Source: a virus. Taken from it: a stretch of 38,299 bases of DNA. The position numbers and the translations under genes were made by a program. The stretch covers positions 1 to 38,299 of the IMG/VR virus record IMGVR_UViG_3300025645_000179. The stretch is one strand, 5' to 3'. The notes beneath the pieces are model-generated. The model had not been told where the DNA came from and made no database searches. It saw only the letters and a program-made list of their open reading frames with translations. Positions 5,959 to 38,299 of this stretch are shown here, one piece after another (the stretch's first letter is position 1; every line of letters begins with the position of its first letter).

Positions 5959-5995
5959 CGCATAGAAGATTATGCGTTTCCCTCCGCCCTGTCAA
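5959..5995 (-). promoter_or_regulatory. Leftward promoter with CGCATA-N6-TATGCG operator (site B)
   Basis: Minus-strand TTGACA (5995-5990), 17-base spacer, TAATCT (5972-5967). The inverted repeat CGCATA-N6-TATGCG (5959-5976) overlaps the -10 box. The strongest match of the three sites. Its -35 box overlaps the stop codon of the upstream 43-residue ORF. It should drive the HTH gene, rusA, the zinc ribbon and the SNF2 helicase. Confidence 0.82.
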
Positions 5996-6123
5996 CGATG
6001 AAGGGCGTAATGGCAGGTGTCGAAGCTGTGGCGCTCCTGGCAGGTGCGCATGGCCTCCTCGTCGGTCGAGGTGATCCACCAGAACGCCGCCCCGAGCGCG
6101 ACCGCTGCGATGATCCAGCGCAT
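5992..6123 (-). CDS. Small 43-residue single-span membrane protein
   Basis: A short gene with a perfect ribosome site, AGGAGG, 7 bases before its ATG. The protein starts MRWIIAAVALGAAFWWIT, one hydrophobic membrane span, followed by a short hydrophilic tail with two cysteines ten residues apart (TCQERHSFDTCHYALHR), probably outside the cytoplasm. The first six residues match those of the plus-strand membrane protein at 8880. Its start region is a duplicate of the start region of the repeat-protein gene at 6810, and its TGA overlaps the -35 box of promoter B. Function unknown. It may be an early host-takeover or superinfection protein; no direct evidence. Confidence 0.7.
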   Translation of the reverse strand: MRWIIAAVALGAAFWWITSTDEEAMRTCQERHSFDTCHYALHR

Positions 6124-6138
6124 GCCGCTTCCTCCTGT

Positions 6139-6250
6139 TGCCGCCCCGTGCTCATCAGCCACGGTCGAGGGCGGCTTCGCCGTAGGACACGGGGGCGCGC
6201 CCCGTGTTTCGCGTCAACTGTTCTGCCAAGCCGCAAACCAAGCGGTGGCC
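6139..6250. repeat. 112-bp exact direct repeat, copy 1
   Basis: Bases 6139-6250 are identical to 6826-6937 (offset 687). The unit holds the last codons of the repeat protein, its stop, a hairpin ACACGGGG-GCGCG-CCCCGTGT (6187-6207) and the spacer leading to the next ribosome site. Similarity continues, with changes, into both downstream start codons. Confidence 0.95.
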
Positions 6251-6810
6251 ATGGCCTCGTTGTAGGCGCGCTCGGCGGGGGCCGTGGCCTCGTCGTAGGC
6301 GCGCCGGGCGGTGGCCATGGCCTCGTCGTAGGCGCGCTCGGCGGTGGCCATGGCCTCGTTGTAGGCGCGCTCGGCGGGGGCCGTGGCCTCGTCGTAGGCG
6401 CGCCGGGCGGGGGCCATGGCCTCGTCGTAGGCGCGCTCGGCGGTGGCCATGGCCTCGTTGTAGGCGCGCTGGGCGGGGGCCCTGGCCTCGTCGTAGGCGC
6501 GCCGGGCGGTGGCCGTGGCCTCGTCGTAGGCGCGCTCGGCGGTGGCCATGGCCTCGTTGTAGGCGCGCTCGGCGGGGGCCGTGGCCTCGTCGTAGGCGCG
6601 CCGGGCGGTGGCCATGGCCTCGTTGTAGGCGCGCCGGGCGGTGGCCGACAAGAGACACCGCGCCCAGCCCCAATCAAACGTGGCCGCGTGCTCGACACAG
6701 AGCGCAAGCGTTGGCTCCACGTCAGCTTCGCCAAACAGCTTGATGAACGCTTCGACATGCGAGCACGCCCCGAGAGCGCGCAGCCGTGCAGCGTTAATCG
6801 TTTTCGACAT
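6214..6810 (-). CDS. Protein with twelve 11-residue Ala-rich repeats
   Basis: 198 residues. An N-terminal domain of about 54 residues (INAARLRALGACSHVEAF...FDWGWARCLL) is followed by twelve tandem repeats of the pattern x-A-x-A-x-R-A-Y-[N/D]-E-A (residues 55-186) and a closing ATAWFAAWQNS. The DNA repeats are 33 bp long (6253-6648). Similar phage and bacterial proteins with AYxEA repeats exist but their role is unknown to me; the repeats should form a long amphipathic helix or a helical solenoid. The ATG at 6810 follows AAGGAG by 8 bases. Repeat number is likely to vary by slippage. It is a leftward, probably early gene. Confidence 0.82.
   Translation of the reverse strand: MSKTINAARLRALGACSHVEAFIKLFGEADVEPTLALCVEHAATFDWGWARCLLSATARRAYNEAMATARRAYDEATAPAERAYNEAMATAERAYDEATATARRAYDEARAPAQRAYNEAMATAERAYDEAMAPARRAYDEATAPAERAYNEAMATAERAYDEAMATARRAYDEATAPAERAYNEAMATAWFAAWQNS
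6253..6648 (-). repeat. Twelve tandem 33-bp coding repeats
   Basis: Twelve in-frame copies of a 33-bp unit, alternating between subtypes (TAPAERAYNEA, MATAERAYDEA, MATARRAYDEA and others), so larger 66-99 bp blocks also recur. They cause long open shadow frames on the plus strand. Confidence 0.95.
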
Positions 6811-6825
6811 GCCGCTTTCTCCTTC

Positions 6826-6937
6826 TGCCGCCCCGTGCTCATCAGCCACGGTCGAGGGCGGCTTCGCCGTAGGACACGGGGGCGCGCCCCGTGTTTCGCG
6901 TCAACTGTTCTGCCAAGCCGCAAACCAAGCGGTGGCC
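6826..6937. repeat. 112-bp exact direct repeat, copy 2
   Basis: Identical to 6139-6250. Here it follows a gene remnant and precedes the start of the intact repeat protein. The two copies bracket that gene, so recombination between them would delete or multiply it. Confidence 0.95.
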
Positions 6938-6972
6938 CTGGCCTCGTCGTAGGCGCGCCGGGCGGTGGCCGT
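6901..6972 (-). pseudogene. 3' remnant of a second repeat-protein gene
   Basis: On the minus strand 23 codons read TATARRAYDEARATAWFAAW plus QNS and a stop: one repeat and the C terminus of the protein encoded at 6214-6810. An in-frame TAG at 6975-6973 lies just upstream and there is no start codon. It is a truncated second copy left by tandem duplication and deletion. Confidence 0.85.
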
Positions 6973-6975
6973 CTA

Positions 6976-8139: not shown

Positions 8140-8362
8140 AACGGTTCATGCAACGCTTCATCCCTTGCCGATGCGGGACGCTTTGCGCCCGCTAGGCAGG
8201 TGACGGGGCGTAACAGCAAAGGGTGCAATCCATGGTAGTTTGCAGGTATGACAAGACGCCAGTTCACGTGGTTGCAGGGCGAAAAGGCAGGGAAACGACG
8301 CTTAGGCGAAACAACAGGATTGTTGACTAGGCGGGGCCCTCGTCAACTGTGCAGTCAAATCA

Positions 8363-8390
8363 ATGACTTAGCTACATTGCAAACTATAAT
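8363..8390 (+). promoter_or_regulatory. Candidate rightward late promoter
   Basis: TATAAT (8385-8390) is a perfect -10 box. The best -35 match is ATGACT (8363-8368) with a 16-base spacer, 4 of 6 to consensus. The expected start (about 8397) is immediately before the palindrome at 8399-8414. It would launch the whole late operon; the weak -35 suggests activation by a phage or host factor. Confidence 0.55.
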
Positions 8391-15117: not shown

Positions 15118-16133
15118 ACATCTACCAGCGAATGCTCATGAGCGCAGGCATCGTCCGCGCACCGGAAACCGGTGGCGGCAGCGGTGGCGGGGCCACGTCC
15201 GTGTTCGGCGGCCAGGGCCAGGGCCAGGGCCAGGGCCAGGGCCAGGGCCAGGGCCAGGGCCAGGGCCAGGGCCAGGGCCAGGGCCAGGGCCAGGGCCAGG
15301 GCCAGGGCCAGGGCCAGGGCCAGGGCGGTCAGGGCGGTCAGGGCCAGGGCCAGGGCGGTCAGGGCGGGTGGTTCGACAAGCTCTCCGCCGAGGACCGTGC
15401 GTGGGCTGAGAGCAAGGGCTGGAAGTTGGAGACGGACCCGTTCACGATCTTCCAGAGCTACCAGAACCTGGAGAAGCTGTTCGGTGCCGACAAGGCCGGC
15501 CGCACGGTGATGCTGCCGAAGGACGAGAACGACAAGGCGGCGGTCGATGCCATCTACGACAAGCTCGGGCGGCCGAAAGACCCCAAGGAGTACAAGATCG
15601 ACATCCCGGCCGGCGCGGACCCGGCGTTCTCCGACGCGGCGCGTACCTGGTTCCACAAGGCCGGCCTGACACAGGCACAGGCGGCGGCCGTCACGGAGAG
15701 CTACAAGGCCCTCGAACTTGACGCGGTGCAGAAGGTTCAGACCGAGCACGCGCAGCAGGTCGAAGGGCTCCAGAGGGAGTGGGGCGCGCAGTTCGATCAG
15801 AAGGTCGAAGTCGCGAAGGCGGCGCTGAAGGCCGCCGGCATCACCGAGGCGCAGACGAAGGCGGTGGAAAGCGCCCTCGGTCCGGCGACGGCGGCCAAGA
15901 TGTTCGAGTTCTTCGGCCGCAACTACTCGGAAGCTGGCCCGCCCGGCAACGAGACGCGGACCGCGCCCGGCTTCACCAATCTCACCCCGGCGGCGGCGTC
16001 GCAGAAGATGGAGCAGCTTCGCGCGGACCCGAACTTCATGGCGCGCTACGACCACGCCGACCCGAAAATTCGGGCGCAGGCGATCGAGGAGATGGACAAC
16101 CTCGCCAAGATTGTGGTCAACAACCGCGCGTGA
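15114..16133 (+). CDS. Capsid scaffolding protein with Gly-Gln repeat tract
   Basis: 339 residues. An N-terminal Gly-rich linker carries a long (GQ)n run coded by nineteen GGCCAG hexamers. Then comes the assembly domain (WFDKLSAEDRAWAESKGWK, KTEDPF..FQSYQNLEKLFGADK), coiled helices, and a basic C-terminal tail with ALGPATAAKMFEFFGRNY. The SAEDRAWAESKG...NLEKL pattern is typical of T7-like phage scaffolds, which guide capsid assembly and leave before DNA packaging. It lies between portal and capsid genes as expected. The GQ tract is unusual for this family and should be flexible and prone to length change. ATGA overlap at the start; a strong terminator follows. Confidence 0.88.
   Translation: MNIYQRMLMSAGIVRAPETGGGSGGGATSVFGGQGQGQGQGQGQGQGQGQGQGQGQGQGQGQGQGQGQGQGGQGGQGQGQGGQGGWFDKLSAEDRAWAESKGWKLETDPFTIFQSYQNLEKLFGADKAGRTVMLPKDENDKAAVDAIYDKLGRPKDPKEYKIDIPAGADPAFSDAARTWFHKAGLTQAQAAAVTESYKALELDAVQKVQTEHAQQVEGLQREWGAQFDQKVEVAKAALKAAGITEAQTKAVESALGPATAAKMFEFFGRNYSEAGPPGNETRTAPGFTNLTPAAASQKMEQLRADPNFMARYDHADPKIRAQAIEEMDNLAKIVVNNRA
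15210..15323 (+). repeat. (GGCCAG)19 hexanucleotide repeat
   Basis: Nineteen perfect tandem GGCCAG units inside the scaffold gene, followed by GGCGGTCAG variants and two more units. Each hexamer adds Gly-Gln, so changes in number keep the frame. Confidence 0.95.
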
Positions 16134-35793: not shown

Positions 35794-36234
35794 CTAGTGG
35801 AACAGCTTGTCGCTCATCGTCCCCCACTCCTTCGCATACAACACAGCCTGAAACACGGCTATCCGATCTTGCTTGTCCATCAAGTTTAGCCGGGAGCACA
35901 GCTTAGTTGCTACCGCGTGGCGGGCAGCGAACCCTGGATCACGGGTGACTATAAGGTTCACCTCACCGCCGCGCCACGACATGAAGCCCGACGCGGCTGC
36001 GTTTTGGTAGTGCTCACTGCCTTCTGCGTTTTGGTAGTGCTCACTGCCTTCCCACAAAAACCCGTGCGAAGACATAATGGACACAGCTTGGCTCACCGCG
36101 CGTGCGTCAGGACAGAACACCAGGTAGTCGTAGTCGGAGAACACCGGCTCCGGGCGGCACGTAACACGAGACCCGCAGGGCGTGACCGTGCATCTCGCAG
36201 CCCGGAGTGAGTTTTCGAGTTGTTGGTCTATCAT
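35794..36234 (-). CDS. Nucleotidyltransferase-like protein
   Basis: 146 residues. PEPVFSDYDYLVFCPDARAV contains an S-D-x-D motif like the GSxxDxD metal-binding signature of MNT-type nucleotidyltransferases, and GGEVNLIVTRDPGF supplies the expected following strand. NTase-like proteins of this size are often found near DNA polymerase in T7-like phages; substrate unknown. The initial Gly of the usual GS pair is absent (here Phe-Ser), so activity is uncertain. A 9-residue tandem duplication (EGSEHYQNA twice) lies near the middle. ATGA overlap with polymerase fixes the start at 36234; longer frames run into the polymerase gene. Confidence 0.75.
   Translation of the reverse strand: MIDQQLENSLRAARCTVTPCGSRVTCRPEPVFSDYDYLVFCPDARAVSQAVSIMSSHGFLWEGSEHYQNAEGSEHYQNAAASGFMSWRGGEVNLIVTRDPGFAARHAVATKLCSRLNLMDKQDRIAVFQAVLYAKEWGTMSDKLFH
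35997..36050 (-). repeat. 27-bp perfect tandem duplication
   Basis: Two exact, head-to-tail copies of a 27-base unit inside the nucleotidyltransferase gene, adding nine residues in frame. The absence of any difference between copies points to a recent event. Confidence 0.95.
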
Positions 36235-36256
36235 TTCACGTACCTCTTGTCCCGCC
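36231..36256 (-). repeat. Duplicated translation-start module, copy 1
   Basis: Encodes the last seven residues of DNA polymerase and contains AAGAGG, the ribosome site for the nucleotidyltransferase ATG at 36234. Copy 2 is at 35718-35743. Confidence 0.8.
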
Positions 36257-38299
36257 AAGCTGCGCTGGTCAGCGGGAACCCCCTCGCCCACGGCGGCAGG
36301 ATCGCCATGAGCCGCTGCACCTCGGCCACATCCCCCTGACCGATGGGAACCTCGAACACGCCTTCGTCGTGGACGTGCAGAACGACGGGGTAGCCGGCGC
36401 GCTCGCAAGCCATCATGCCATGCGCCAGCAGGTCGCGGCACAGTGCCTGCACAACGTTCTCCCACTCCAGCCCGCCGTAGAGCGACACGTCACCCCACGC
36501 ATTGCGGCGGCTATCCCAGCCCTCAACGATCACCTGGCGGCGAGTGCGCTCGTATGTGTCACCGTAGGCATCCGTCAGTTCCTCCTTCGTCTCCTTGATG
36601 CGCGGGCGGAAGTAGGAGAGCGGCCGGCCGGACGGCAGGTAGATGTAGAGGAAGCTCTGGTTCCGCGCGCAGTAGACACGGACGCGGCCGTTGAACAGCA
36701 GGATAATCTCGCCGGGGTTCGAGACAGCTTCGATCACGGCGTCCTGCAAATCCCACCAGCCCTGTACGATGCGCGGGTGGCCGGAGCGCCAGCCGTCAAC
36801 GACATAGCGGAAGGCGGTCCACTGGTCTTGCGACAAGCCAAACTTGGCGCTGCGCTCGTACTTCGCAGCAGCGGCGTCCCACCCTTCCACGGTCGCGGCG
36901 GGCTTCACAGCCGCCAGGAGGTTGTCCGGCTTGACCCCGTAGTTCGCGCCCATGTTCATGAACGCACCCACCGCACCCTGGTAGCCGAGCGACAGTTCCT
37001 GCACCTTGCCGATCTGGCGCTTCGGCCCCTTGCCGATGCTCTCGACAGGCTCGCCGAACGACTTGCTGTAGGCGAGCTTGTACAGGTCCGGCCCGGTGCC
37101 AGCGTCGTAGGCGAGGAAGGCTTCGATCTTCCAGTGCTCGTCATTCAGCCACGCGGACCCGCGCCCTTCGACGTTTGAGTAGTCGCAGCCGATGAGTTCG
37201 TGGCCGTCCGCCGCAACGATCATGGCGCGCGTGCATTTGCCTACGGCCTTCATTGGCACCAAGCCGATCAACTCGCACCAGTCCACCGCGTCTTTCGGAG
37301 AGCCCGCATCCCGGAGGATCGTCAGCATCTGCTCGACGAGCGGGCCGTCTTCATCCGGGTCGATGCGCTCCAGATTGTGGGGCTGGTAGAGCTGCCCGGC
37401 CCACCGGCCAGTCGATGCCTTGTGGTAGGTGAGCAGCCCGCGTGCGCGCTCGTCGAAGCCGACGCATCGCAGCCCCGCGCCGTACTTCGCCAGGCTTGTT
37501 GCCTTGGCCCCGAGCCGCCGCAGCCCTACAGCCGCCTCGGCTGGACCGTCGTCGAAGAGCTTGGCGTGCGCAATGATGTCTTCTACCTCGCCCTTTCCGA
37601 GGCTTGTCACTGGAATGCCCCGGCCGTTCAGCCAGTCCTTCAGGCGCTGGACTTGCGTCGTCTTCGGGACCGCGCCTTCGGTGACACGGTCGATCTCGAT
37701 GTCAACGCGGCGCTTGGCCTCGTCCAGGAAGGCGTCGGCTCGCCGCATCAGTTGCGTGTCGAGCCGGAAGCCGCGCATGTTGACGACCAGGTCGAAGTGG
37801 TAGATGTCGCGTTCGCTGTCCGACATCTGCGGCAGCGTCGTATCGATGTCGCACTCGGCTTCAACGTCGTCGCCGCAGTAGACATCGAACTCGTTGAACT
37901 TGTCGGGGTAGTCTTCCGGCTCGTGCCAGTAAATTTTGTTCGGGTCTTCCGTCTTCGTCGGTTTTCGCGGGACGCAGAAGAACTGGATCAGTGCCTTGCC
38001 GGCGGGGTTCTTCTTGTGCTTGACCCGCATCAACGTGGTGACACCGTCGAGTGACCCGAGCAGCGACATGATGTGCGCGCGGGCCATGGTGCAGTCCATC
38101 TGGTGGGGCGACAGCTTGCCCCACCCCATGCGTTCGCAGACGTAGGTCCAGATGGCAAGCTCGAACAGCGCACTGTGCGCGCACACCGTCGCACCCGAGG
38201 CGACGGCGGAGATCAGTTCGACCGGCGGCGGGTCGCCCCGCCGCCAGCCATTCACAGGGCCTCGTCCCCACTCGTCTTCGATGCACCACCGGGCCAGGA
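36231..38299 (-). CDS. DNA polymerase family A, main part (5' end at 1-228)
   Basis: Template-directed DNA synthesis for phage replication. In full-gene numbering (720 residues) an exonuclease domain (ExoII AHSALFE near 74, a DVEAECD segment near 176) precedes a polymerase domain. Motif A is GCDYSNVEGRG near residue 403, motif B is the helix around KVQELSLGYQGAVG near 463, and motif C is VHDEGVFE near 676, with its HDE signature. The gene ends WRDKRYVK and its TGA overlaps the ATG of the next gene (ATGA). Bases after 38165 are the terminal overlap, so the right-hand 134 bases duplicate part of 1-228. A start at an internal GTG near 38255 would remove ExoI and is wrong. Neighbours (ssDNA-binding protein, nuclease, primase-helicase, SNF2 helicase) form a self-contained replication set. 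No T7-like RNA polymerase accompanies it. Confidence 0.95.
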   Translation of the reverse strand, partial: LARWCIEDEWGRGPVNGWRRGDPPPVELISAVASGATVCAHSALFELAIWTYVCERMGWGKLSPHQMDCTMARAHIMSLLGSLDGVTTLMRVKHKKNPAGKALIQFFCVPRKPTKTEDPNKIYWHEPEDYPDKFNEFDVYCGDDVEAECDIDTTLPQMSDSERDIYHFDLVVNMRGFRLDTQLMRRADAFLDEAKRRVDIEIDRVTEGAVPKTTQVQRLKDWLNGRGIPVTSLGKGEVEDIIAHAKLFDDGPAEAAVGLRRLGAKATSLAKYGAGLRCVGFDERARGLLTYHKASTGRWAGQLYQPHNLERIDPDEDGPLVEQMLTILRDAGSPKDAVDWCELIGLVPMKAVGKCTRAMIVAADGHELIGCDYSNVEGRGSAWLNDEHWKIEAFLAYDAGTGPDLYKLAYSKSFGEPVESIGKGPKRQIGKVQELSLGYQGAVGAFMNMGANYGVKPDNLLAAVKPAATVEGWDAAAAKYERSAKFGLSQDQWTAFRYVVDGWRSGHPRIVQGWWDLQDAVIEAVSNPGEIILLFNGRVRVYCARNQSFLYIYLPSGRPLSYFRPRIKETKEELTDAYGDTYERTRRQVIVEGWDSRRNAWGDVSLYGGLEWENVVQALCRDLLAHGMMACERAGYPVVLHVHDEGVFEVPIGQGDVAEVQRLMAILPPWARGFPLTSAAWRDKRYVK
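38166..38299. repeat. Terminal overlap, right copy
   Basis: Same sequence as 1-134 apart from one base (C at 38173). It should be trimmed when the genome is drawn as a circle. Confidence 0.92.

Follow-up and report, generated by a model that had tools for sequence, protein, structure and literature searches.

A phage protein family with a conserved head and an arm of variable 11-residue repeats, duplicated in tandem in metagenomic phages

The gene at 6214..6810 (minus strand) of a phage record of 38,299 nt, the whole of which is referred to here as the window, encodes a protein of 198 aa (P0001) that joins a conserved N-terminal head to twelve 11-residue repeats. It belongs to a family of phage proteins, and the family itself, its domain layout, the 11-residue period, the tandem duplication of the genes and the greater conservation of the head than of the arm are all well supported by the comparisons given below. 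The arm is predicted to fold as a helical hairpin. Our preferred reading, with a probability of about 0.4, is that of a two-part early phage protein, in which the head serves as a tether and the variable arm binds a changing host factor, and of which the gene is amplified in tandem.

Genome and locus

The window (IMG/VR record IMGVR_UViG_3300025645_000179) carries a 134-bp direct repeat (99.3% identity) at its ends, 1-134 and 38166-38299, so that the 38.3-kb record probably represents an almost complete genome, opened within the gene for DNA polymerase. A second contig, from a different metagenome, matches the window at 99.99% identity along 8,994 bp; it has the same repeat gene, with the contig end falling inside the repeat. 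The terminase is nearest to those of Rhizobium phages (56%), and a T7-type internal virion protein is encoded. Genes for DNA polymerase, primase-helicase, exonuclease and helicase lie in a minus-strand block, with the repeat gene near its start, and the structural genes form a separate block on the opposite strand. Divergent promoter-like sites (consensus matches only) are found upstream of the repeat gene, at about 8320-8390. An earlier note, written from the DNA sequence alone, had described the gene as early; its place in the replication region agrees with this, and it is from position that we infer early expression.

Two other repetitive tracts were seen in the window. The sequence (GGCCAG)n at 15210-15356 gives a run of about 25 Gly-Gln pairs within an ORF of 339 aa that is flanked by portal and capsid-like genes, probably as the linker of a scaffold-type protein. 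At 35997-36051 a 27-bp unit is exactly duplicated in tandem, giving EGSEHYQNA twice within the ORF at 35794-36465, a recent expansion.

The repeat gene and its 11-residue units

The ORF is intact, starts with ATG at 6810 downstream of an AAGGAG sequence, and has homologues of its head in dozens of phages. Residues 60-191 (6238..6633, minus strand) comprise twelve units of the form RAY[ND]EAxAxAx, all in register. The twelve AYxEA repeats and their 132-residue length were correctly recognized in the earlier note, which placed them at 6253-6648; the RAYxEA phase shifts the units by 5 residues. The motif AY[ND]EA occurs 12 times in the protein, against a maximum of one in 20,000 residue shuffles. 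At the nucleotide level, TRF reports a 33-bp period (12.3 copies, score 628) and a better-scoring higher order of 99 bp, or three units, at 6242-6646 (96%, score 761). Seven of the 11 residues (R, A, Y, E, A, A and A) are identical in 12/12 units, and positions 4, 7, 9 and 11 vary in the RAYxEA phase. Diversifying selection within the window repeats was considered and set aside, as codon variation is too little (seven non-synonymous states and one synonymous).

Head, tail and family-wide pattern

In dozens of metagenomic phages the same layout is found: a head of about 55 aa (GACxxQ...F...FDWxWAAxxLL), 1-16 repeats, and a short AFAxxY tail. The window head spans residues 1-55 (6646..6810, minus strand; GAC...F...FDWxWA..LLS), with four short predicted helices, and residues L10, A15, C16, F22, F45, A50 and L54 are invariant in an alignment of 35 sequences. 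The tail, identified by comparison across the family, is WFAAWQNS plus the stop codon (residues 191-198; 6214..6240, minus strand). The repeat had been thought rare in small phage genomes, but the motif and the head occur in many viral contigs, where 23 stretches match the repeat pattern and 57 match an independent head pattern, FDWxWAAxxL; nearly every family ORF found by the latter continues into 11-residue units after the head. A head profile matched 42 of the 44 records searched. The family set comprises 92 collected members, in which a median of 109 aa follows the head. Relatives with a frameshifted or unexpressed gene would have spoken against the earlier note; what is found instead is a head and reading frame kept in dozens of phages.

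The consensus over 525 units is Y1 (96%), A/V4, A6, A8 and A/E11, and the frame, the 11-residue phase and the Y/A stripe are preserved over these units, which come from diverged lineages. With 11 residues to three turns, the conserved positions 1, 8, 4 and 11 are adjacent on one face of the helix. Positions 5, 9 and 2, which vary, cluster on another face, away from this stripe. A proline is present at the unit borders in one third of family units. Net charge is not conserved (-14 to +12 per 100 aa), and a DNA-mimic reading was dropped for this reason.

Two members (L041 and L077) have a head and tail with almost no repeats, suggesting that repeat growth came after these two parts. The same 11-residue units also appear alone or behind different N-termini (L015, L021 and L028), so that the arm would seem to behave as a mobile or convergent module. 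Between the window and its relative L008, head dN/dS is about 0.05-0.16 (a short alignment, of about 53 codons), and among the members of arrays it is about 0.29-0.96 (again short alignments of about 53 codons). As judged from these values, purifying selection on the head is clear between phages and weakly supported within arrays, where the values do not amount to positive selection.

Tandem duplication and gene arrays

A 165-bp direct repeat (95%) links 6121-6285 with 6808-6972, so there are two copies of the gene's 3' end and of the hairpin-plus-RBS unit that comes after it. The upstream intergenic unit (6808..6900, minus strand) has a strong hairpin (-37.7 kcal/mol) followed by the RBS and ATG of the repeat gene, and the downstream unit (6121..6213, minus strand; -39.6 kcal/mol) leads into the next gene. 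Within both units, at 6178-6210 and 6876-6900, lies an identical GC-rich palindrome (ACACGGGGCGCGCCCCCGTGT, minus strand) with no T run, which may be an operon-internal RNA element. The remainder of an upstream gene copy is at 6901..6975 (minus strand), where the translation gives an in-frame TAG, then TATARRAYDEARATAWFAAWQNS and a stop codon. In L008, with flanks 83% identical to those of the window, two intact tandem genes occupy the same place, each with 5 repeats. The repeat count thus varies between relatives, as was foreseen in the earlier note, with 12 in the window and 5 in each of the two L008 genes; the note did not describe the head that is conserved, the duplication of the gene in tandem or the upstream remnant. 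Next in the operon after the repeat gene, and starting at the downstream duplicated RBS, a small ORF of 43 aa can be read from the sequence (5992..6123, minus strand; MRWIIAAVALGAAFWWITS...), a probable small membrane protein.

Other phages carry 12, 11, 10 and 8 copies per record, and another has 10 copies of a class with DWMLW heads (see later). Neighboring ORFs in these arrays mostly overlap by 1 or 4 nt, and the arrays adjoin genes for primase, helicase, DNA polymerase or terminase. The largest are about 6 kb, with up to 12 genes, or about 15% of a 40-kb genome. Within the 12-gene array, identity is 79% for the heads, 48% for the arms and 70% for the tails. One array member, gene 3 of L105, has decayed.

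Predicted structure

AlphaFold2, run on the window protein with a 47-row family alignment, predicts the head and a long antiparallel helical hairpin (pLDDT 91.7, pTM 0.74). Four short helices lie within residues 7-53, followed by a helix at 56-124, a turn at 125-131 and a second long helix at 132-196; the turn has a pLDDT of about 66 and falls in a gap-rich stretch of the alignment. The two long helices of the model, with the Y1/A8/A4/A11 stripe on one face, support the suggestion in the earlier note of an alpha-helical rod with a hendecad period. In relatives that bear a loop, breaks such as LNSPPSERDGV, ATPICDPPCWS, AAGDGPYS and IEGPSER are found near the middle of the arm. For five paralogues with the LNSPP...DGV loop, the lengths of arm 1 and arm 2 are 36/26, 43/35, 54/46, 54/46 and 64/46 residues, a correlation (r 0.92) from n=5 paralogues of shared ancestry. 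The mid-arm loops and the joint lengthening of both arms are consistent with a hairpin, independently of the model. A Foldseek search of the PDB with the head alone (62-aa model, pLDDT 80) returned no match. Hairpin matches from VIA-align (ATP synthase c-ring, PI3K iSH2 and ABC transporters) were rejected as generic long helices, with Z values of up to 9.7 being too low for helical models.

Distribution and database searches

A window-like terminase is present in 5/36 family phages, and a window-like portal likewise in 5/36; with so few sharing these genes, transfer of the repeat gene between unrelated phages is probable. The family is apparently restricted to phages. No match was found in 694 bacterial genomes (398 Pseudomonadota and 296 Actinomycetota; searches without a positive control), and a search of plasmids gave nothing convincing. 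When two heads were used in tblastn searches of 50,697 phage records, the matches were only low-complexity or marginal ones; a Caulobacter phage match was to a larger protein lacking the family architecture. There was no blastn match of the locus among phage records, the head is covered by none of the families in Pfam, NCBIfam or PHROG, and a literature search found no paper on the family. PADLOC models did not match it, apart from two weak single hits, and no defense-related neighbor was identified near family genes.

Coiled-coil matches in Pfam, NCBIfam and PHROG (DivIVA, tape measure, phasin) are weak, confined to the repeat and probably driven by composition; for phasin (PF09361), P0001 scores 13.5 bits, below the 24.9-bit Pfam cut-off. 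The head is missing from AYDEA-like proteins of Prevotella and soil MAGs, which are probably convergent. In four Bacteroidales MAG sequences (L102, L103, L104 and L093), long AYDEAKQAVS repeats precede a C-terminal domain, which we take to resemble the type VI secretion protein Hcp; these, too, are probably convergent with the phage family.

Comparison with known systems

The closest known counterparts are phage proteins with a CxRGDWMLW head and an Ala-rich helical part that forms long AAYAAADAA helices. They are very abundant in IMG/VR phages (at least 120 stretches, L113-L232), yet one member taken as query gave one match among the 50,697 phage records. Part of these match PF21805 Imm5_like (E 1.3e-12), a putative immunity family. 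Both groups have a short head with a DW motif followed by an Ala-rich helical part; the DWMLW heads carry an ACxEA...W motif, and there are several tandem pairs among these proteins. In some genes a DWMLW-type head is joined to the 11-residue repeats of the window family, with 10 tandem copies in G003, and in G004 a DWMLW-type and a window-type gene are 0.5 kb apart. The window head differs in being of the FDWxWAA type, and P0001 matches neither PF21805 nor PF14423 (Imm5), even at E 1. Comparison of the two heads with hhalign gave a probability of 67.6 over 19 columns, which is no more than suggestive. An action like that of Imm5_like proteins is therefore possible, with no claim of membership being made.

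In polymorphic toxin systems, polyimmunity loci consist of paralogous immunity genes repeated in tandem (PMC3482391). Homogeneous loci of this type share with the phage arrays same-strand tandem paralogues that differ in number between close relatives; arrays of one orientation and variable size are found in relatives of the window; the window carries a single copy plus a remnant. The phage arrays differ in being phage-borne, of another protein family and without a known toxin. Tandem amplification of tifA in T4, by which a toxin is overcome (PMC9391042), is similar in that a small phage gene is multiplied by recombination, but the tifA copies arose when T4 was selected in the laboratory against a known toxin, whereas the family array copies are diverged.

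Function and alternative explanations

In the preferred reading, the conserved head of about 55 aa would bear an antiparallel alpha-helical hairpin whose length is set by the number of 11-residue units, with the short conserved tail returning to the head. The head would tether the protein to a conserved partner, or to itself, and the fast-changing outer face of the arm would bind a variable host factor, probably a defense or toxin factor, in a one-to-one and dosage-dependent manner. Unequal recombination among repeats and among tandem genes would make arm length and gene number rapidly tunable, in the style of gene accordions or polyimmunity loci. Early expression, tandem amplification, a constant head and tail, a variable arm and the apparent confinement to phages all fit a stoichiometric binder. 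Our best guess is an early protein that would bind a varying host factor stoichiometrically or act as its decoy, with a gene amplified in the manner of counter-defense or polyimmunity genes. Blocking of a host defense, as proposed in the earlier note, is plausible; nothing points to a receptor, its other suggested target.

Tandem repeats and tandem genes can also expand neutrally. The strongest rival, though still improbable by our estimate, is that the conserved role of the head is a modest one and that slippage lengthens and shortens the arm, and adds and removes gene copies, with little or no adaptive meaning; the 99-bp higher-order growth in the window repeat, the remnant copy, the decayed array member and array-head dN/dS values of up to 0.96 speak for it. 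Such drift accounts poorly for the retention of frame, phase and stripe across the 525 units, for the symmetric growth of the arms, and for the cost, to a genome of 40 kb, of carrying an array of about 6 kb. An amphipathic arm lying on membranes in the manner of apolipoprotein 11-mers, for example in superinfection exclusion, is less probable again. Prolines at unit borders and the possible membrane ORF after the repeat gene would suit it, but the conserved stripe is Tyr/Ala rather than bulky hydrophobic and net charge is not conserved; P0001 does not match the apolipoprotein A1/A4/E family (PF01442), and the one relative with a weak score reaches 16.6 against a 90-bit Pfam cut-off.

We consider a part in replication or nucleoprotein organization, as an accessory factor, to be about equally unlikely, or marginally more so. 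Primase, helicase and DNA polymerase genes are its neighbors, yet changes in copy number and arm length are hard to square with a conserved machine, the net charge range is wide, and no family member was seen among isolated phages whose replication genes are similar. By far the least probable is a virion ruler or rod. Tape measure proteins with 11-residue aromatic repeats (PMC3271669) do share the helical period, an aromatic marker and a variable repeat number with the repeat protein, and there are weak PHROG tape-measure scores; however, the repeat protein differs from them in location, size, head domain and copy number (up to 12 in relatives). A tape measure gene of a long-tailed phage would be expected among the tail genes, whereas the window gene sits among the replication genes on the minus strand, in a phage that has its structural genes on the other strand and encodes a T7-type internal virion protein.

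Implications

A dozen overlapping copies of one gene, taking up 6 kb, is an outlay rarely seen in small phage genomes. More speculatively than the binding role itself, the family could be a virus-only one of constant heads and variable arms, expanded in arrays as rapidly tunable binders against changing host defenses, and so the phage counterpart of polyimmunity loci or of variable-surface gene arrays. However mundane its function may prove, neither the family nor its architecture had a name in the libraries searched. Its spread over phages with no common terminase or portal, and near absence from isolates, point to a common but unstudied phage-host interaction, and if the copies differ in binding target, the arrays would record which host factors are important to uncultivated phages.
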